Positions 19,339-28,314 of a stretch of DNA of 64,000 bases are shown here, piece by piece. Under the pieces are notes generated by a model. That model saw only the letters and a list, made by a program, of their open reading frames with translations. It ran no database searches and had not been told where the DNA came from. Each line of letters starts with the position of its first letter. The first letter of the stretch is position 1. Source of the DNA: Gammaproteobacteria bacterium (lineage in GTDB: Bacteria > Pseudomonadota > Gammaproteobacteria > Burkholderiales > Burkholderiaceae_C); NCBI GenBank assembly GCA_025359085.1, contig JANYHL010000057.1:1-64000 (forward strand), in the 5' to 3' direction. A program made the translations under genes and the position numbers.

Positions 19339-20685
19339 ATGTCAAAGACGTCCACGCGCAAGCCACTCTACAAATCACTTTATGTTCAGGTCCTGTTCGC
19401 CGTCACCATTGGCGTGTTGCTGGGCCACTTCTCCCCGGATCTGGGTACACAGATGAAACCTTTGGGTGACGGTTTCATCAAGTTGATCAAGATGATCATC
19501 GCGCCTATCATCTTCTGTACCGTGGTGGTCGGCATTGCCGGCATGGAAGACATGAAGAAGGTGGGCAAGACAGGGGGTTTGGCGCTTCTCTATTTCGAAG
19601 TGATGTCTACCTTGGCCCTGCTCGTAGGTTTACTCGTCGTCAATGTAGTGCAGCCTGGCACCGGAATGCATGTGGATCCTTTGTCACTGGACACCAAGGG
19701 AATTACCGCTTACACGGCACCCGGCAAGATGCAAGGCTCTGTGGATTTTCTGCTCAATGTCATTCCGTCCTCGGTGGTAGACGCATTTGCCAAGGGTGAG
19801 ATCCTGCAGGTTCTGTTGTTCTCCGTATTGTTTGGCTTTGCACTGCATAAATTCGGCGGACGCGGCACGATGGTGTTTGACTTCATTGAGAAGTTTTCCC
19901 ACGTTTTATTCGACATTGTCGGCATCATCATGAAGGTCGCTCCGATTGGTGCCTTCGGTGCCATGGCGTTCACGATCGGGAAATACGGTCTGGGATCGCT
20001 GTTTTCTCTGGGCAAGCTCATGGGCGCGTTTTACCTGACCTGCCTGATCTTTGTTTTCGGGATATTGGGCATCGTCAGCCGTCTGAATGGTTTCAGCGTG
20101 TTCAAGTTTGTGCGCTATATCAAGGAAGAATTACTGATCGTTCTGGGCACCTCGTCTTCAGAATCGGTGTTGCCCCGCATGATGGAAAAGATGGAAAACC
20201 TGGGTGCGCGCAAGTCGGTGGTCGGGTTGGTGATTCCAACTGGTTACTCCTTCAACCTCGACGGCACGTCAATTTACCTGACCATGGCCGCGGTATTCAT
20301 CGCTCAAGCCACGGATACTCCGATGACGCTGGTGCAGCAAGCGACGCTGTTGGCCGTGCTGCTGCTGACGTCCAAGGGCGCCGCAGGTGTCACGGGCAGC
20401 GGGTTTATCGTGCTGGCAGCGACCTTGTCCGCTGTGGGCGGCGTACCAGTGGCGGGCTTGGCGCTTATTCTTGGGATTGACCGCTTTATGTCAGAGGCGC
20501 GCGCGTTGACCAACTTGGTGGGCAACGGTGTGGCAACGCTGGTGGTGGCGAAATGGACTGGGGATCTGGACATGAATCGCTTGCACCAGGGATTGGACAA
20601 CCCCACCATGCTGGAGTCGCAGGAGCCGGAGGCGATTTTGGACTTGCAGGTCTCGCACATGAATGTGATGAAGGCCAAGACCTGA
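19339..20685 (+). CDS. dctA: C4-dicarboxylate:proton/sodium symporter
   Basis: This transporter of about 448 residues takes up succinate, fumarate and malate across the inner membrane. It shows family landmarks [24 protein letters not shown], the reentrant-loop serine stretch [18 protein letters not shown], and the substrate-binding [19 protein letters not shown] and [14 protein letters not shown]. The start MSKTSTRK at 19339 is the usual DctA start. The track ORF begins 42 codons too early. It follows the two-component pair in the same direction. Its 3' end is the last ordinary gene before the integron region. Confidence 0.95.
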
Positions 20686-20742
20686 AACGGTTCAATTTAT
20701 GGCTGAATAAAGGCGGTTTCCTCTGCAGGAGATCGCCCTTAT

Positions 20743-20758
20743 TGGTTCATACGAACCA
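20743..20758. other. Short inverted repeat after dctA
   Basis: TGGTTCATACGAACCA has six-base arms around ATAC. It lies 58 bases past the dctA stop. No run of T follows, so it is a weak terminator candidate at best. Confidence 0.35.
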
Positions 20759-20808
20759 TAATTTACGACTGAGATGTACCGCCAACACAGGCAAAAAATC
20801 ACTCCGAA

Positions 20809-20912
20809 CTCTGCTGGAGCGCCCACATCTGCGCATAACGGCCATTCAATACCAACAACGCTGCATACGAGCCACGCATCAATGATGCGCCCAGCGTCCA
20901 TCACCTTGGCGA
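20809..20912 (-). pseudogene. 3' fragment of an ABC exporter gene (frameshifted)
   Basis: In reverse the fragment encodes VMDAGRII and then, after one extra base, RGSYAALLVLNGRYAQMWALQQSSE and a stop. The intact exporter at 26465 ends VMEAGRIIERGSHAELLAAGGRYAEMWALQQSAE. The two DNA stretches line up without gaps apart from that one base, at about three quarters identity by eye. So the piece is the end of a diverged homologue, broken by a +1 frameshift. It has the same orientation as the intact gene, and the whole integron remnant lies between them. Confidence 0.8.
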
Positions 20913-20985
20913 TACGCGCCGCCCACGCGATGGCCTCGTCGCGCGAAGACAGTTCCAACACGGTGAAGCCGCCATCGAGCGTGGG
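20903..20985 (-). pseudogene. YCII-domain-like fragment fused to the ABC fragment
   Basis: Directly upstream of the exporter fragment, the same reading frame encodes TLDGGFTVLELSSRDEAIAWAARIA, which resembles the end of YCII-family proteins (DGPFTEAKE..GGFTVLEL.S.DEAIEWA). A stop codon lies just before it, so only a remnant is left. The join to VMDAGRII makes a chimeric frame (the 89-residue track ORF 20692..20961). I infer a deletion or recombination joint at about 20.91 kb. Confidence 0.6.
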
Positions 20986-21001
20986 CGCTCAAGGATAGAG
21001 G

Positions 21002-21478
21002 TCACGTTTGCCAAGACTGCCACCTAGCAACGTATTCGTTGAGAACCTCCAATTGCTTGGAGGGAAACTCGTGTTGGACCCATTTCTCTTTGTAGGTAAC
21101 AAGACCATGCTCGGCGAGCACACTCGCGGCGGCTGACTGCACGGCCAGACCAAACTCAAGCGGATGGCAGGAGAACTCGACCAGCAACTGACCTTCGGAG
21201 TCAGGGAGATTGCTCCAGAGTTCGGAAAACTTTAAGAGGCGAATCTTGATCTCGGTTGGCGTGACTCGGTTGACGCTCCAACGGTACTCGCCTGGTTCTT
21301 CATCAAACCCGAAGGAAACGCTTGCGAAGCCAGCCAAGACCGAACATGCACCGAGGACTAGAGTGGCCAGGGCATCAGAGAGATACGACGCCGAGAGTTC
21401 GCACTCGAGTTCTTCGGACGTGACTTTGCACCGAGACCACCCGGCGCCAACGAGCTGATAGTCGATGGAGAGCTTCAT
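21002..21478 (-). CDS. Integron cassette protein, unknown function (cassette 4)
   Basis: This 158-residue protein (MKLSIDYQLVGAGWSRCKVTSEELECELSASYLSD...) is not recognised. It appears soluble, with no signal peptide or membrane helix. It begins 4 bases after the core of the attC at 21482, the normal spacing for a gene cassette, and reads away from the integrase. It has no attC of its own. The sequence after its stop at 21002 passes straight into the YCII/ABC chimera, so the cassette has lost its recombination site. Base composition is lower in GC than the neighbouring core genes. Confidence 0.75.
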   Translation of the reverse strand: MKLSIDYQLVGAGWSRCKVTSEELECELSASYLSDALATLVLGACSVLAGFASVSFGFDEEPGEYRWSVNRVTPTEIKIRLLKFSELWSNLPDSEGQLLVEFSCHPLEFGLAVQSAAASVLAEHGLVTYKEKWVQHEFPSKQLEVLNEYVARWQSWQT

Positions 21479-21481
21479 GAC

Positions 21482-21562
21482 CGCTAACGTTGCCGCTAAC
21501 CGGCCCGAAACGGCGGCGCAACGCGCCGCTGTTGGGGGTCCGTGTTCATCGGCGGGTTAGAC
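21482..21562 (-). other. attC recombination site (cassette 3)
   Basis: On the minus strand this 81-base site reads GTCTAAC (R''), then AACACGGA (L''), a GC-rich hairpin GGCGGCGCGTTGCGCCGCC in imperfect form, then CCGGTTAG (L') and CGTTAGCG (R'). The stop codon of the cassette 3 gene lies inside R'', as is common. The site is complete enough to be recombination competent. Confidence 0.9.
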
Positions 21563-22117
21563 CTGTGCTTGCGTAAGACGAATATCGACTTCTCGGTCGA
21601 CGTATTTCCATTCCTCTGACGCACGCAGTTCGGAAAGCAGCATGTTGAACTCAACCTCATGAATTGGCGCGTATTCGAACCAATTCAGAAAATCGAACGG
21701 TTCACTTTCTGAGAGGTCGCGGCAGTGGTGGAGCTTGCGCGCTACTGCAGGCAAGTATTGAAGCCCGATTTGGACGTGCTTCGACTGTTCGAAAACGCTC
21801 CGGCGTTCGTCTTGCGTGAGCTCCCACCAAGCTGCGTTCTTCCGGATCGGTATTAGCGCAGCGAACGTTGCTTCTGGGCGCGCCAGACCTTGCTGCTTCG
21901 CTACAATTTCATTCTTCTCTGCGCGCATGACATATCGTTCATTGCTGGTTATTCCACGAAGTATCCAGGGTGCATTGGTTTCAGATTGCACCTCTGAAGC
22001 GGATACGACGTTGAGCCTTTTGGCTTCAGGCAGTGGCTCGCCAACTCTGGTTTCGGCCCTGACAATCCGCCAAGGGCCAATGTCTGCGCCGACGAATGCA
22101 AATAATCGTGTATTCAT
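21557..22117 (-). CDS. Chlorite dismutase-family protein in an integron cassette (cassette 3)
   Basis: This 186-residue protein (MNTRLFAFVGADIGPWRIVRAETRVGEPLP...) has a C-terminal half rich in chlorite-dismutase family features: RYVMRAEKNEIVAKQ, ARPEATFAALIPIRKNAAWWELTQDERRSVFE, LQYLPAVARKLHHCRDLSESEPFDFLNWFEYAP and EWKYVDREVDIRL. The HHCRD histidine is the likely heme ligand. Family members split chlorite or act as heme proteins or heme-synthesis enzymes. Small, cassette-borne members are not characterised to my knowledge. Its neighbours are unrelated cassettes. Confidence 0.8.
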   Translation of the reverse strand: MNTRLFAFVGADIGPWRIVRAETRVGEPLPEAKRLNVVSASEVQSETNAPWILRGITSNERYVMRAEKNEIVAKQQGLARPEATFAALIPIRKNAAWWELTQDERRSVFEQSKHVQIGLQYLPAVARKLHHCRDLSESEPFDFLNWFEYAPIHEVEFNMLLSELRASEEWKYVDREVDIRLTQAQV

Positions 22118-22136
22118 TTCAACCTTTCGTGTTGAG

Positions 22137-22199
22137 GTCTAACGTTTGAAATCAGGGGACGCCAGCTTGCTGGCGGTCCCCTGGATTGAATTGTTAGAC
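22137..22199 (-). other. attC recombination site (cassette 2)
   Basis: This 63-base near-palindrome starts GTCTAAC and ends GTTAGAC, with the internal arms AGGGGACGCCAGC and GCTGGCGGTCCCCT. Conserved R and L boxes and the unpaired bases typical of attC are visible. The cassette 2 stop codon lies inside R''. It is the clearest attC in the array. Confidence 0.95.
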
Positions 22200-22895
22200 G
22201 GCAGCATTTGAACGGACCCCATATTTTTGGAAGTGTTGTTCCATCATTTCGTCTCCGCCAAAGTCCCGCTGTAGTAGCCGAAGTCTTTGAAGGTTTTTGT
22301 CGTCCCCTTCATAGGGGATGTCCGTCCAACCTCTCGGAAGTCCGACGGACTCTTCAATGTCTTCAATTGTCCAGCCAAGTGCGGCAAGACCTTTCTCTGT
22401 GAAGATTGCTCGCGGATCAACGTACGCCCAGAAGTCTCGATAGCAACGTTCAATTACCTTTAGTACCTCTACGAAATATTCCTCAGCAAGTCTTGTGACC
22501 TCTCCAGCCGGAGCCTTTTCTAGCCCGCCGATGTCCACAAAATACGACAGGTGCTTTACTTCGCCGTTACGCATTGTTCCTGTGTGTCCTACCGGTATTT
22601 CTCCAACTTTTTGCAAGTAATTTCTAAGGTTTACGAAATATTTGGCGAGATCATTTGACCTCAATCCTTCTTGCTCTCGTGCGTACCAAGAATCGAAATC
22701 TGGATACTTTGACATTACGGCCTGAAGAGAAAATGTGATGCTTCTCGCTGCGGATGTGAATGCGCTTAGGACGTATGAGAATTCGTGATAGCGCCCTTGA
22801 ACCGATTTCAGCATTTCAAGAAAGTAATCGGCCTCTCCAACTTTTTGCGCGACGATGTAGAAGCCTTTGGACGGGAATTGAAACTTTTCAGTCAC
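22194..22895 (-). CDS. Integron cassette protein, unknown function (cassette 2)
   Basis: This 233-residue protein (MTEKFQFPSKGFYIVAQKVGEADYFLEMLKS...) is not recognised. It looks soluble and mostly helical, with an aromatic-rich middle (YPDFDSWYAREQ; NLRNYLQKVGEIPVGHTG). The gene is bracketed by attC sequence: its stop is inside the R'' of the site at 22137, and its start follows an R' core (GTTAGAA) at 22915. It reads away from intI like the other cassettes. AT content is clearly above that of the surrounding core genes, in line with transfer. Confidence 0.75.
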   Translation of the reverse strand: MTEKFQFPSKGFYIVAQKVGEADYFLEMLKSVQGRYHEFSYVLSAFTSAARSITFSLQAVMSKYPDFDSWYAREQEGLRSNDLAKYFVNLRNYLQKVGEIPVGHTGTMRNGEVKHLSYFVDIGGLEKAPAGEVTRLAEEYFVEVLKVIERCYRDFWAYVDPRAIFTEKGLAALGWTIEDIEESVGLPRGWTDIPYEGDDKNLQRLRLLQRDFGGDEMMEQHFQKYGVRSNAAV

Positions 22896-22910
22896 CTCAA
22901 ATTTCCTTTG

Positions 22911-22926
22911 GCCGTTCTAACGAATG
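22911..22926 (-). other. attC core (R') next to the IS, 3' end of an upstream site
   Basis: The minus strand reads CATTCGTTAGAACGGC. GTTAGAA fits the attC core GTTRRRY and lies in the right place just before cassette 2. The rest of a full attC does not follow. Instead the sequence passes into the insertion element. The ten bases CTAACGAATG (plus strand, 22917..22926) recur at the other end of the element. Confidence 0.6.
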
Positions 22927-23041
22927 AAAGGGATTTCCCCGTCCCGAGCAAGCCGCGCCCCGTGGGGGTTGCGGTTTACGGCAACTGAGTGCCAAGATGG
23001 AGAGGCAAATCTTTTCATCAACTCACTTGAGAGGGGAAATC

Positions 23042-24058
23042 ATGGCTATCGTAACCGTTGGAATCGATCTCGCCAAGAACGTCTTTGCAGTGCACGGCGT
23101 CGATGAGTTCGGCAAACCTGTGTTGGTGCGCCCGGAGGTGCCCCGCGCCAAACTTCTGGAGCTCATCGCCAATCTGCCACCCTGCCTGATCGGCATGGAA
23201 GCGTGCTCCGGCGCCCACCACTGGGCCCGAGAGTTCGCCAGGTTCGGGCACACCGTGCGTATGATGGCGCCGAAGTTCGTTGTGCCCTATCGCATGAGCG
23301 GCAAGCGCGGAAAGAACGATGCGGCCGACGCGGCAGCAATCTGCGAAGCCGTTACACGGCCCAACATGCGCTTTGTGCCTGCCAAAAGCATCGAGCAGCA
23401 GTCGCGCCTGTTTGTGCACCGTGCGCGCCAGGGCTATGTGGAGCAGCGCACCGCGCTTATCAACCGCATTCGAGGCTTGTTGTCCGAACTTGGCATCGTG
23501 CTGCCGCTCAAAGCCGCCACCGTGCGCCGTGAAGCACACCAGCATCTGGAGGACCTGCCAGGATGGTGCAACACCGTGGTGGGCGATGCTCTGAGTGAAC
23601 TCACTCGCCTGGACGAACGCATTACCCAGTACGATAAATACATCGCCCAGTCAGCTAAGGACGATGCACAGGCCAGACGGCTCATGCAGCTCGGTGGCAT
23701 TGGTCCGGTCACTGCCAGCGCCATTGTCGCCACCGTGGGGAAAGGCCACGACTTCAGTTGCGGACGTCAGTTCTGTGCTTGGCTGGGCTTGGTTCCAGGT
23801 CAATACAGCTCGGGTGGCAAGCAGCGCCTGGGCCGCATTACCAAGGCCGGTGACCCGTACTTGCGCACCCTGTTGATCTTGGGTGGCAAAGCCGTGCTGG
23901 CGGCAGCCAAAAATAAGACCGATCCAGTGAGCCGCTGGGCGATTTCAGTACAGGAGAGACGCGGCTATTGGAAAGCCGTGGTGGCTATCGCGGCAAAGAA
24001 TGCGCGCATGTGTTGGGCCATGCTGCAGCGCGGCGAGGCGTTCAAGATGCCTGCGTAA
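23042..24058 (+). CDS. IS110-family (IS1111-group) transposase/recombinase
   Basis: This 338-residue protein has the N-terminal RuvC-like DEDD domain (VGIDLAKNVFAVHGVDE; CLIGMEACSGAHHWARE; KNDAADAAAICEA) and the C-terminal Transposase_20 domain (LMQLGGIGPVTASAIVATVG...FCAWLGLVPGQYSSGGKQRLGRITKAGDPYLRTLLI). The serine in QYSSGGK is the likely catalytic nucleophile. The frame is intact. The start at 23042 follows a GAGGGGAAATC ribosome site. In the IS1111 group the guide RNA lies after the gene, where here about 150 bases are non-coding. Confidence 0.92.
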   Translation: MAIVTVGIDLAKNVFAVHGVDEFGKPVLVRPEVPRAKLLELIANLPPCLIGMEACSGAHHWAREFARFGHTVRMMAPKFVVPYRMSGKRGKNDAADAAAICEAVTRPNMRFVPAKSIEQQSRLFVHRARQGYVEQRTALINRIRGLLSELGIVLPLKAATVRREAHQHLEDLPGWCNTVVGDALSELTRLDERITQYDKYIAQSAKDDAQARRLMQLGGIGPVTASAIVATVGKGHDFSCGRQFCAWLGLVPGQYSSGGKQRLGRITKAGDPYLRTLLILGGKAVLAAAKNKTDPVSRWAISVQERRGYWKAVVAIAAKNARMCWAMLQRGEAFKMPA

Positions 24059-24210
24059 TCAGGTCAATGTGGCAGTATTTGAAATCGAAGTTGTTGATGT
24101 CACCGTGTGATGACTTGTCGTTGATGAGTGAAAGGTTTAGACCTGCGCCGGGGAATGCTCGTTTAGCTCAAGGAGGTCAACTGGGTTGGGCAACCAATTC
24201 TGAGCCTCGA
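24059..24210 (+). ncRNA. Candidate bridge/seek RNA region of the IS element
   Basis: IS1111-group elements encode a guide RNA in the 3' non-coding end that selects the target. This 152-base stretch between the transposase stop and the provisional element end is in that position. It contains attC-core-like strings, GTTTAGAC at about 24147 and CTCGTTTAG at about 24168, which could be guide segments for the CATTCGTTAG target. I have not folded it. The RNA is inferred from position. Confidence 0.45.
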
Positions 24211-24432
24211 CTAACGAATGGAGCCCTCGGCGCGCGTCTTTCATCAGGGTCCGCTGCAAGCAAAGCAGCCTCGAATGACCGTTTGTAGTTTCGCCGTCCA
24301 CATGCCTTGCGCTCTATAGGCAACGACCGATAGCACGGGAGATACAGAGGGAGAAAGGGATTCAGGTTTCGTGGTCAATCGCTGCGCGATTCAACCACGA
24401 TGGAATTCTGTTTGACAAAGGTAGGGAAGCCC
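24211..24432 (-). other. Non-coding remnant between the IS and the cassette 1 attC
   Basis: The minus strand begins with a complete-looking core CATTCGTTAG next to the element and contains the hairpins GCTGCTTTGCTTGCAGC and GTGGTTGAATCGCGCAGCGATTGACCAC. I see no open frame. It may be the remains of a cassette whose gene has been lost, or a non-coding cassette. The string AAACTACAA occurs in it and again in the damaged R' of the next attC. Confidence 0.4.
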
Positions 24433-24500
24433 TTGTAGTTTGAGGTAACCGGCCTCGCGCGCTTTATGCGCGAGGTCGGTGTTGACCGAGAGGTTAGCCA
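24433..24500 (-). other. attC-like site of cassette 1 with eroded R'
   Basis: On the minus strand GGCTAACC (R'', containing the cassette 1 stop), then AACACCGAC (L''), the hairpin CCTCGCGC...GCGCGAGG, and CCGGTTA (L') are clear. The last box should be a GTTRRRY core, but reads AACTACAA. The cassette can probably no longer be excised at this end. The track ORF 24391..24777 is a read-through of this site. Confidence 0.75.
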
Positions 24501-25216
24501 TCACCGTCTTTCCTTTGCACTCGTGATGGCAACTTTGTGGTACACGACTGAAGTGATTCGGCTGCTTGTTCGATGAGAGCTGATAGCTCGGAAACCGCTT
24601 GTGCCTCTTTATCTGCACTAACAGGTACCTTGAAATACCTAAGTCCTGCAACCTCAATGCGGTCACGTTCGTGAACGAACAGCCTATGCACTGAGAGAGA
24701 CATGAGCGGCGCATCTGCACGAGTGTCGACTGGCCGAACGAAGGGGAATACCTGCCCTTTTTCACCTTCTTTTGCATTACGCACCGTCAGAACTAGCGAC
24801 GGTCCAAGCACGCCGTTGGCTTGGCTTTGGCTAAAGTTACGCGGATACGCCTCCACACCCTTCTGGTTTTGGGCTGAGAGATTTCCGATCTCCACTTCCA
24901 CCGATCTTCCCGCAGGAACAGTCGATGCCACAACAAATATTGCCGTCATGTCGTTAAAGGCGGCACGGCTGAAGTAAAGCGTGTTGTTGTTATACATCGC
25001 CTCAGCAAGTGCGTCCGCATCATTGGCGCGAGGGAATGTTAGACAGAATACATTTCCGAAGCGGTGCTGCCCGTTCCACAGTTGTTGTTTTCCGGAAAAC
25101 CTCGCCTCCAGAAACTTAGAAGATAGTTGAAAGGATTGCTGCGCCGACACCGTACTTGTTTCAACTAAGGCCATGGCGGCTGAAAAGACGAGTAGGAACG
25201 AGTGGGGAATTTTCAT
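24494..25216 (-). CDS. Secreted integron cassette protein, unknown function (cassette 1)
   Basis: This protein of about 240 residues starts MKIPHSFLLVFSAAMALVETSTVSAQQ, a signal peptide with a probable cut after VSA, so it is exported to the periplasm or beyond. The start at 25216 was chosen over the track start at 25300 because of that peptide and because the longer start would run through the attI core. The mature part is not recognised. It includes ARFSGKQQLWNGQHRFGNVFCLTFPRANDAD and repeated beta-type stretches. It is the first cassette next to attI. Confidence 0.7.
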   Translation of the reverse strand: MKIPHSFLLVFSAAMALVETSTVSAQQSFQLSSKFLEARFSGKQQLWNGQHRFGNVFCLTFPRANDADALAEAMYNNNTLYFSRAAFNDMTAIFVVASTVPAGRSVEVEIGNLSAQNQKGVEAYPRNFSQSQANGVLGPSLVLTVRNAKEGEKGQVFPFVRPVDTRADAPLMSLSVHRLFVHERDRIEVAGLRYFKVPVSADKEAQAVSELSALIEQAAESLQSCTTKLPSRVQRKDGDG

Positions 25217-25242
25217 GGCGGCGGTCGCGTGGTGGTTGTGAT

Positions 25243-25249
25243 GGCTAAC
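25243..25249 (-). other. attI core (cassette 1 insertion point)
   Basis: The minus strand reads ACGTTAGCC, and GTTAGCC matches the GTTRRRY crossover site and the R'' box of the cassette 1 attC (GGCTAACC). It lies between the integrase promoter and the first cassette, so it is the expected attI/cassette joint. The rest of attI would be toward 25383. Confidence 0.65.
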
Positions 25250-25342
25250 GTAATGTAGATGGCAAAAGCCGGTCGATACATCCAGCCGTTGACGATACAT
25301 CTTCTATACAAAAACCCTGCAAACCGCTTGCAGCATGGTTAC

Positions 25343-25378
25343 TTGACTCATATACTGTATTTATATACAGGTATAAAT
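25343..25378 (+). promoter_or_regulatory. Integrase promoter region
   Basis: TTGACT at 25343 is a good -35 element. AT-rich -10 candidates follow (TATACA inside the LexA box; TATAAA at 25373) but spacing is not ideal for either. It is the only promoter-like sequence in front of the integrase ATG at 25384, and there is no clear ribosome site. Confidence 0.5.
25355..25370 (+). promoter_or_regulatory. LexA (SOS) box at the integrase promoter
   Basis: CTGTATTTATATACAG matches the LexA consensus CTGT-N8-ACAG exactly, with an AT-rich centre. It overlaps the integrase promoter 14 bases before the ATG. SOS control of intI by LexA is well established for integrons, so the site fits both sequence and context. 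Confidence 0.9.
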
Positions 25379-25383
25379 TTTTC

Positions 25384-26298
25384 ATGAAACCCGGCACTCC
25401 TCCGTTGAAATCGGCCCGCTTGCTCGATCAGGTGCAAGAGCGGGTTCGTTACCTGCACTATAGCCTCAAGACCGAAAAGGCTTATCTTTATTGGATACGT
25501 TTTTTTATTCGCTGGAATGCTGCCCAAGGGTCAGGTATGCGACACCCGCGCGACATGGGCGTGACGGAAGTTGAGGCCTTCCTCACCATGATGGCCACCG
25601 AACGCAAGGCATCTGCTTCCACCCATAACCAGGCACTGAGTGCGTTGTTGTTTCTTTATCGCGAAGTGCTCAATATCGATTTGCCGTGGTTAAACAACAT
25701 TGGGCGGCCGCAACAAACCAAACGCATTCCATCCGTGTTGACGAAAGACGAAGTTGCTGGTCTTCTGGCCCAAATGGATGGCATTGCCGCGCTGCTGGCA
25801 AAGCTGCTGTACGGCACGGGCATGCGCTTGATGGAGGGAATCCGCCTTCGGATCAAGGATGTGGATTTTGACCGCCACGTCATCATCGTTCGCGAGGCCA
25901 AAGGTGGCAAGGATAGCGTGGTCATGCTGCCGCATTCGCTGGCACCGACCTTGCGTTTGCAAATGCTGGCGGCGCGGGCGCAGTGGGAGGCAGACCGCCA
26001 AGCGCAGCGCGGCGGTGTAGAAACCCCGCACGCGCCGGAGCAGAAATACCCCCAGGTGGGCAATACGTGGGGGTGGTTCTGGATGTTTCCATCGCCAACG
26101 CTTTCAATTGACCCACGCAGTGGTGTCGAACGGCGGCACCATTTGTTTGAAGAGCGGCTACAACGGGCGCTCAAGAAGGCCGTGCCACTGGCTGGCATTC
26201 ACAAACCAGTTTCAGTCCACATCCTTCGCCATTCATTTGCCACCCACCTTCTGCAAGCTGGCACCGACATCCGCACGGTGCAAGATAGCCTGGTGTGA
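25384..26298 (+). pseudogene. intI: Integron integrase, truncated before the catalytic tyrosine
   Basis: The 304-residue product is an IntI tyrosine recombinase: N-terminal core-binding domain (LHYSLKTEKAYLYWIRFFIRWN), first catalytic arginine in LYGTGMRLMEG, the IntI-specific insert (EQKYPQVGNTWGWFWMFPS...DPRSGVERRHH) and HILRHSFATHLL. A normal IntI goes on about 25 more residues after TDIRTVQ to LLGH...YTH, which holds the last histidine and the tyrosine nucleophile. Here it ends TVQDSLV and a stop. It should be unable to recombine. The reading frame is otherwise undamaged, so the loss looks recent. Confidence 0.92.
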
Positions 26299-26365
26299 TG
26301 AATGACCGCTCCCGCCGCCCTTCGCAGCAGCCCCAAACTTGTTACGTGATCCCAGAACGCGACCC

Positions 26366-26444
26366 GCAGAGATTGGGGCATGGGTCCCCGCCGATTTCTG
26401 GGCATTTGACAGCATGAGGCGGGGGGCCATGCCCCAATCTCTGC
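26366..26444. repeat. 27-bp inverted repeat between intI and the ABC exporter
   Basis: GCAGAGATTGGGGCATGGGTCCCCGCC at 26366..26392 pairs with GGCGGGGGGCCATGCCCCAATCTCTGC at 26418..26444, with two mismatches in 27 and a 25-base loop. It begins 67 bases past the broken intI end and ends 20 bases before the exporter stop. It could be a strong terminator-like hairpin or a remnant of a small inverted-repeat element. Confidence 0.85.
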
Positions 26445-26464
26445 CACCAAAGCCATGACTTGCG

Positions 26465-28279
26465 TCACTCAGCCGACTGCTGCAACGCCCACATCTCCGC
26501 ATACCTCCCACCCGCTGCCAACAATTCCGCATGCGAACCCCGCTCAATAATCCGCCCCGCCTCCATCACCAGAATCTCATGCGCGTCCACCACCGTGGAC
26601 AAGCGGTGCGCAATCACCAGCGTGGTCTTGTTCTGCGCCACACTTTGCAGCTCGGCCTGGATGGCGCGCTCGTTGGCGGAGTCCAGCGCTGACGTGGCTT
26701 CGTCGAAGATCAATATCGGCGGGTTTTTCAGCAGGGTGCGGGCAATCGCCACGCGCTGTTTTTCGCCGCCCGAGAGTTTGAGCCCGCGCTCGCCCACCAT
26801 GGTGTCGTAGCCCTTGGGCGTGGCGTTGATGAAATTGTGAATGTGGGCGCTGCGGGCCGCATCGATCACTTGCGCGCGCGTGGCGCCGGGTTTGCCGTAA
26901 GCGATGTTGTATTCCACCGTGTCGTTGAACAGCACGGTGTCCTGCGGCACGATGCCGATCGCTTGCCGCACCGACGCTTGGGTGACTTGCTTGATGTCCT
27001 GCCCGGCAATCAATATTTGGCCTTGCTGTACATCATAAAAACGGAACAAGAGCCGCGCCAACGTGGACTTACCGGAGCCCGAGGGGCCGACCACCGCCAC
27101 GGTTTTGCCGCTTGGTATCTCGAAGCTGATGTCATGCAGGATCGGCCGCGCCGCCTCATAGGCGAAGTTGACGTGGCTAAACGTCACGTTAGCGCCATCC
27201 ACCCTGAGCGGCTGCGCACCCGGCAGGTCGGCAATTTCGCGCTCGCGCTCCATCAGGGTGAACATCTTGTCCAGGTCGGTCAGGCTTTGCTTGATCTCGC
27301 GGTACAGCACGCCCAAAAACCCGAGCGGAATGTAGAGCTGGATCATGAACGCGTTGACCATCACCAGGTCACCCAGCGTCATGTGGCCGTCGACCACGCC
27401 TTGCGTCGCGCGCCACAGCATGGCGACCAGGCCGGTGGCGATGATGAGCTGCTGGCCGGTGTTGAGCAAGCTCAACGTGCGCTGGCTCTTGAGGGCTGCC
27501 AGGCGGTAATTCTTCAGGTTTTCGTCGTAACGGTGGGCCTCGAACTCTTCGTTGTTGAAGTACTTGACGGTCTCGAAGTTCAACAGCGAGTCGATGGCCC
27601 GACTGTGCGCTTTGGAGTCGAGTTCGTTCATGACCTTGCGAAACTGGGTGCGCCACTCGGTCACGGTCACGGTGAAGCTGATGTAGAACACCAGCGCAAT
27701 GATGGTGATCAGGGCAAACCAGATGTCAAACTTGACCGCCAGGTAGGTCAGCACCATGGTCACTTCGATCAGCGTCGGGATGATGCTGTAGAGCGAATAC
27801 GAAATCAGCGAATTGACCGCGCGCGTGCCGCGCTCGATGTCGCGCGTCAGGCCGCCGGTCTGGCGTTCCAGGTGAAAGCGCAAGCTCAGGGCGTGCAAAT
27901 GGCGAAACACTTGCAGCGAGATCGTGCGCGACGCGCCCTCGGTGGCTTTGGCAAACACCAGCTCGCGCAACTCGGCGAACAAGGTGGTGGACAGGCGCAG
28001 CAAGCCATAGGCCAGCAGCAAGGCCGCTGGCACCACCAGCAAGGCGGTGGCGTCGATGCCGCCCTTGGGGTTCATGGTGTCGATCAGTTGCTTGAGCAGC
28101 AAGGGCACGCTCACGTTGGCTGTTTTGGCCGCCACCATGAACGCCAATGCGGCCATCACGCGCCATTTGTACTCCCACAGATAAGGGAACAGGCGCCTGA
28201 GCGTCGCCCAGTCAGAACGGGTGGGGGCAGGAACGGGCGCTGCAGGGGCGCCGTGGTCGGCGGAGGAATGGTGGCGCAT
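26465..28279 (-). CDS. ABC exporter, fused membrane and ATPase domains (ATM1/MsbA type)
   Basis: This protein of about 604 residues has about six membrane segments in the first 330 residues, then an ATPase with Walker A GPSGSGKST, Q loop GIVPQDTVLFNDT, signature LSGGEKQR, Walker B ILIFDEATSALD and H-loop IAHRLST. The membrane part (TANVSVPLLLKQLID; LRELVFAKATEGASRTISLQVFRHLHALSLRFHLERQTGGLTRDIERG) resembles the ATM1 heavy-metal/glutathione-linked exporters more than lipid flippases. The start at ATG 28279 was preferred to the TTG at 28288. It is divergent from the YciA-like gene, 35 bp away. A fragment of a homologue lies at 20.8 kb. Confidence 0.9.
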   Translation of the reverse strand: MRHHSSADHGAPAAPVPAPTRSDWATLRRLFPYLWEYKWRVMAALAFMVAAKTANVSVPLLLKQLIDTMNPKGGIDATALLVVPAALLLAYGLLRLSTTLFAELRELVFAKATEGASRTISLQVFRHLHALSLRFHLERQTGGLTRDIERGTRAVNSLISYSLYSIIPTLIEVTMVLTYLAVKFDIWFALITIIALVFYISFTVTVTEWRTQFRKVMNELDSKAHSRAIDSLLNFETVKYFNNEEFEAHRYDENLKNYRLAALKSQRTLSLLNTGQQLIIATGLVAMLWRATQGVVDGHMTLGDLVMVNAFMIQLYIPLGFLGVLYREIKQSLTDLDKMFTLMEREREIADLPGAQPLRVDGANVTFSHVNFAYEAARPILHDISFEIPSGKTVAVVGPSGSGKSTLARLLFRFYDVQQGQILIAGQDIKQVTQASVRQAIGIVPQDTVLFNDTVEYNIAYGKPGATRAQVIDAARSAHIHNFINATPKGYDTMVGERGLKLSGGEKQRVAIARTLLKNPPILIFDEATSALDSANERAIQAELQSVAQNKTTLVIAHRLSTVVDAHEILVMEAGRIIERGSHAELLAAGGRYAEMWALQQSAE

Positions 28280-28314
28280 GGGGGACAATCTGAAAAACTA
28301 CCTCGATTGTGCCC

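Follow-up and report, generated by a model that had tools for sequence, protein, structure and literature searches.

The window, by which we mean the whole stretch of 64,000 nucleotides analysed here, harbours an integron integrase gene (intI) with an attI site at its side and a series of attC cassettes that read away from it, an arrangement that identifies the locus as an integron on the basis of motifs and folding rather than of a trained attC model. The features are as follows.

21002..21478, minus strand: cassette 4 ORF, encoding an unknown protein; the last recognisable cassette
21482..21562, minus strand: probable attC (CGCTAAC...GTTAGAC), read by eye, with its right-hand core GTTAGAC listed as a motif
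21557..22117, minus strand: cassette 3 ORF, with a modest Pfam match to chlorite dismutase (E 1.3e-9)
22137..22199, minus strand: attC of 63 nt, with consensus RYYYAAC/GTTRRRY ends and a strong hairpin
22194..22895, minus strand: cassette 2 ORF, encoding an unknown protein
22918..24455, plus strand: IS110-family element at the boundary of cassettes 1 and 2 (transposase 22997-24058)
24494..25216, minus strand: cassette 1 ORF, with no Pfam or NCBIfam match
25243..25249, minus strand: putative attI/cassette crossover core GTTAGCC, placed by motif
25355..25370, plus strand: LexA box CTGTATTTATATACAG in the intI promoter region, 15/16 to the consensus
25384..26298, plus strand: intI, integron integrase with an internal in-frame deletion (ORF, family and structure matches, comparison with relatives)
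26285..26286, plus strand: deletion joint, 96 nt missing by alignment to the intact relative L036
26286..26318, plus strand: native intI 3' end (last codons SLV, TGA stop, first bases of the 3' flank), matching an intact relative at 29/33
26313..26464, plus strand: flank native to the 3' side of an ABC exporter in related genomes, with a dispersed hairpin repeat at 26366-26444

The IS110-family element (22918-24455) occupies the place where the attC of cassette 1 would be expected, and it may be an attC-targeting IS. This region is 80% identical to an IS110 region of a Polaromonas plasmid, and only the IS110 part found a match in the plasmid records searched. An Rfam search of 20000-27000 returned no relevant match.

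The intI ORF encodes 304 aa, compared with 335 aa in L036. Its product scores 374.9 bits against TIGR02249 (the NCBIfam integron integrase model), well above the cut-off of 265, while the match covers model positions 1-286 of 315 only. The same picture emerged from comparison with the Vibrio IntI structure 2a3v, which is alignable over residues 13-303 of the window protein, including the conserved R, K, H, R catalytic positions; the alignment spans 2a3v residues 5-291 of 320 and ends just before the second histidine. In 2a3v, H293 is the second catalytic histidine and Y302 the tyrosine nucleophile. The structure-sequence alignment revealed that the counterparts of both residues are absent from the window IntI, as is the C-terminal tail, all of which the Vibrio protein keeps. 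The R-K-H-R-H-Y catalytic set is thus incomplete, with R148, the lysine region K173-K176, H279 and R282 retained and the second histidine and the tyrosine deleted. In addition, the IntI-specific extra region before box II (SPTLSIDPRSGVERRHHLFEE) is present and aligns without gaps with 2a3v and the IntI relatives. The ORF at 25384-26298 is an IntI by descent, predicted to be inactive from the absent catalytic residues.

The reading frame reaches the joint at 26285/26286 with GTGCAAGA on its left and TAGCCTGGTG on its right. Compared with L036, 96 nt (32 codons, in frame) are absent here, including the codons of the second catalytic histidine and the tyrosine; the ancestral tail length is itself deduced from relatives, so that the deletion size may differ by a few codons. 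The bases that follow GTGCAAGA, TAGCCTGGTGTGATGAATGACCGCTCCCGCCGC, match the last codons, the stop and the 3' flank of intact relatives. Over the 33 nt from the joint, 29 are identical to the native tail and 3' flank of the intact L036 and L131, whereas the best of 20,000 shuffles reached 22. Moreover, a run of 19 nt, TAGCCTGGTGTGATGAATG, covering the last codons, the stop and the start of the 3' flank, is identical in L011, though the L011 protein is only about 59% identical. The alignment shows the lesion to be an internal in-frame deletion of about 96 nt with the native gene end kept, not a terminal loss.

These results agree in large part with the preliminary description, which had the protein running intact, without stop or frameshift, to TVQ and then ending in SLV-stop, with the last histidine and the tyrosine nucleophile missing and a deletion joint at about 26.29 kb. 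The frame is indeed free of stops and frameshifts upstream of the lesion and reads TVQ-DSLV-stop where intact relatives continue past TVQ; both the TIGR02249 and the 2a3v matches stop before the two catalytic residues; and the joint lies about 5 bases from the estimate. The notion that the 3' end of the gene had been lost did not survive, as the 33 nt past the joint are native tail and flank. Likewise, a sequencing error near 26290 with the missing end in frame behind it was looked for downstream and not found, and a frameshift or sequencing error hiding that end is rejected, since the bases that follow belong to the native gene end and, past it, to the chromosomal flank.

The loss of about 96 nt extends from within the Glu codon of QELLGH up to a codon near the gene end. 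It probably came about via illegitimate recombination, as little or no homology flanks the joint; any repeat there is too short to point to homologous recombination or to repeats collapsed during assembly. Since 96 is divisible by three, the native stop codon and the frame survived, as the alignment shows. The product keeps its N-terminal domain and the greater part of the catalytic core, while the second histidine, the tyrosine and the bulk of the C-terminal tail are gone; binding to att sites may persist, but DNA cleavage is not to be expected.

We were also able to ask how the remainder of the protein compares with its relatives. The window IntI deviates at five positions where conservation among the other relatives is 97% or more (Q18, M70, R178S, L218P and T280I), compared with 0-2 such departures in each of 30 relatives of at least 72% identity. 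Those at Q18 and M70 are common to L054 (Rhodoferax sp. UBA5149, draft genome), whose intI is 98% identical, whereas only the window has R178S, L218P and T280I. All 70 relatives carry R178 and T280, and 68/70 carry L218; L054 and the outgroups keep R178 and L218, while T280I cannot be polarised against L054, which is without that part of the gene. These three substitutions at near-invariant positions suggest that constraint on the window intI is relaxed. The earlier statement that all other motifs are undamaged consequently stands for the remaining catalytic residues and fails at these three sites.

Over 228 codons, dN/dS between the window intI and L054 is about 0.15 (0.0097/0.064). Most of the divergence between the two therefore arose under constraint, and the value, which largely covers the period preceding the loss, gives no date for it. 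The LexA box, by its motif, would mark an SOS-regulated integron. Given the intact box and the persistence of the attI and attC motifs, the inactivation looks fairly recent, with first signs of drift. A recent loss, as proposed in the preliminary description, is plausible in view of the open frame, the LexA box at 15/16 and the dN/dS of about 0.15 to a 98% identical relative.

Several relatives also carry broken intI genes. In L054, the nearest relative, the gene breaks off after about 228 codons and runs into hairpin-repeat DNA that in the genome of the window sits upstream of another gene, on contig C30. This loss is independent, being a different lesion at a different locus, with the reservation that the L054 genome is also a draft. 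Besides, the lesions of L025, L035, L075, L077 and L095 fall in the last catalytic segment (frameshift, truncations); that of L095 (Rhodoferax lacus) is a similar in-frame deletion. We claim no hot spot from this accumulation of lesions towards the 3' end, as the locus search favours long-coverage matches, and the class of broken or partial genes includes those cut by contig ends and is not a pseudogene rate.

Taken together, we consider it very probable that the gene encodes the chromosomal integron integrase of a Rhodoferax-type betaproteobacterium and that a small internal deletion has inactivated it. An artefact of assembly or binning, in which the organism has an intact gene and the draft introduced the 96-nt gap, appears very unlikely: the genome is indeed a draft of 149 contigs, which leaves a small probability for an assembly error or a mixture of strains, but the joint offers no direct repeats for a short-read assembler to collapse, the gap is exactly in frame, and private substitutions that hit near-invariant sites independently of the gap speak for real decay. 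A search of viral contigs found no independent copy of the joint.

The open frame, the intact LexA box and the retention of most of the fold could also be read as signs that the shortened IntI has been kept for a non-catalytic role, for instance binding folded attC or the attI/promoter region under SOS control. We regard such a role as very unlikely, since three near-invariant sites carry private changes, the deletion is not common to any close relative and L054 was broken independently. It is equally hard to credit that in-frame loss of the nucleophile has left a dead, SOS-induced binder of att sites that now protects or regulates the array instead of recombining it. The idea of a terminal truncation, in which a larger deletion or rearrangement swapped the 3' end for unrelated chromosomal DNA and SLV-stop is accidental, draws on the foreign flank (ABC exporter side, hairpin repeat) that starts only about 15 nt past the stop and on the L054 gene, which was truly cut and joined to such a repeat, but it has next to no probability against the tail homology of 29/33.

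If the gene was inactivated by internal deletion, the fate of the array depends on rescue in trans. Searched for the integrase family, the whole genome (97% complete, in its 149-contig draft) yielded one IntI and no second intI, and the missing 3' end was found nowhere else in it. The only other matches were weak, Xer-like ones on contigs C101 and C145 and a degenerate one of 38 residues on contig C89. With no second IntI and no in-frame missing end downstream, the array is probably frozen, which lends support to the earlier suggestion that it would be so unless another integrase acts in trans; cassettes should no longer be captured or shuffled. Were a plasmid to bring in an integrase, it could still act, although none is present in the assembly.

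Decay of resident integrases is well documented. About one third of intI genes were reported to be pseudogenes (PMC2426708), and in another survey 43-46% were predicted to be inactive, with inactivation correlating with loss of LexA control (PMC3108266). The window gene shows the same decay as these surveyed pseudogenes (PMC2426708; PMC3108266), whereas its LexA box is intact and inactivation usually goes along with loss of the box (PMC3108266). Most Xanthomonas strains lack integrase activity owing to frameshifts, stops or deletions, and their chromosomal integrons, likewise with inactivated intI, have arrays that turn stable after inactivation (PMC12444791). In contrast to the large deletions, frameshifts and stops at the ilvD site in Xanthomonas, the window carries a 96-nt in-frame deletion in a Rhodoferax-type integron beside an ABC exporter. 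The class 2 integron (PMC2426708) is likewise a platform with a dead integrase, although intI2 has an internal stop codon in a mobile integron and the window gene has lost active-site residues by deletion. The window intI is accordingly a clear example of a common gene decay and not a new kind. It adds one case to the known pattern of frequent integrase loss and opens no new question alone; its value is that of a clean snapshot of an integron soon after integrase death, with LexA site, attI and cassettes in place, and of two closely related genes (window and L054) with different lesions.

The hairpin repeat beside intI (26366-26444) also occurs on contigs C16, C122, C30 and C119 of G000 and at L039, L112-L126 and L143. 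Its long, GC-rich stem varies in sequence from copy to copy, with 19-24 of the first 24 positions paired (15 copies), and its loop is nearly invariant (GATTTCTGGGC[AC]TTTGACAG[CT]ATGA). Within the same genus, 10-14 of 23 genomes contain it, against 0/14 searched outside the genus. No Rfam family reached threshold for the repeat, which has the look of a structured repeat or RNA/DNA hairpin not yet catalogued. The closely related window and L054 integrons each adjoin a copy at different chromosomal sites. As the L054 break abuts the same repeat, the copy beside the stop was considered as a cause of the window deletion and rejected: the joint falls within the gene itself, and in the related genomes G001 and G018 the repeat is a native part of the ABC-exporter flank.

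To the right of intI, the DNA is chromosomal from 26313 onward, as in G018. On the far side of the array, 20796-20905 holds what is left of an ABC exporter 3' end. This remnant is about 76-77% identical to the G001 and G018 copies and resembles the end of the intact exporter at 26465-28288, so that two copies of the same gene end bracket the integron.
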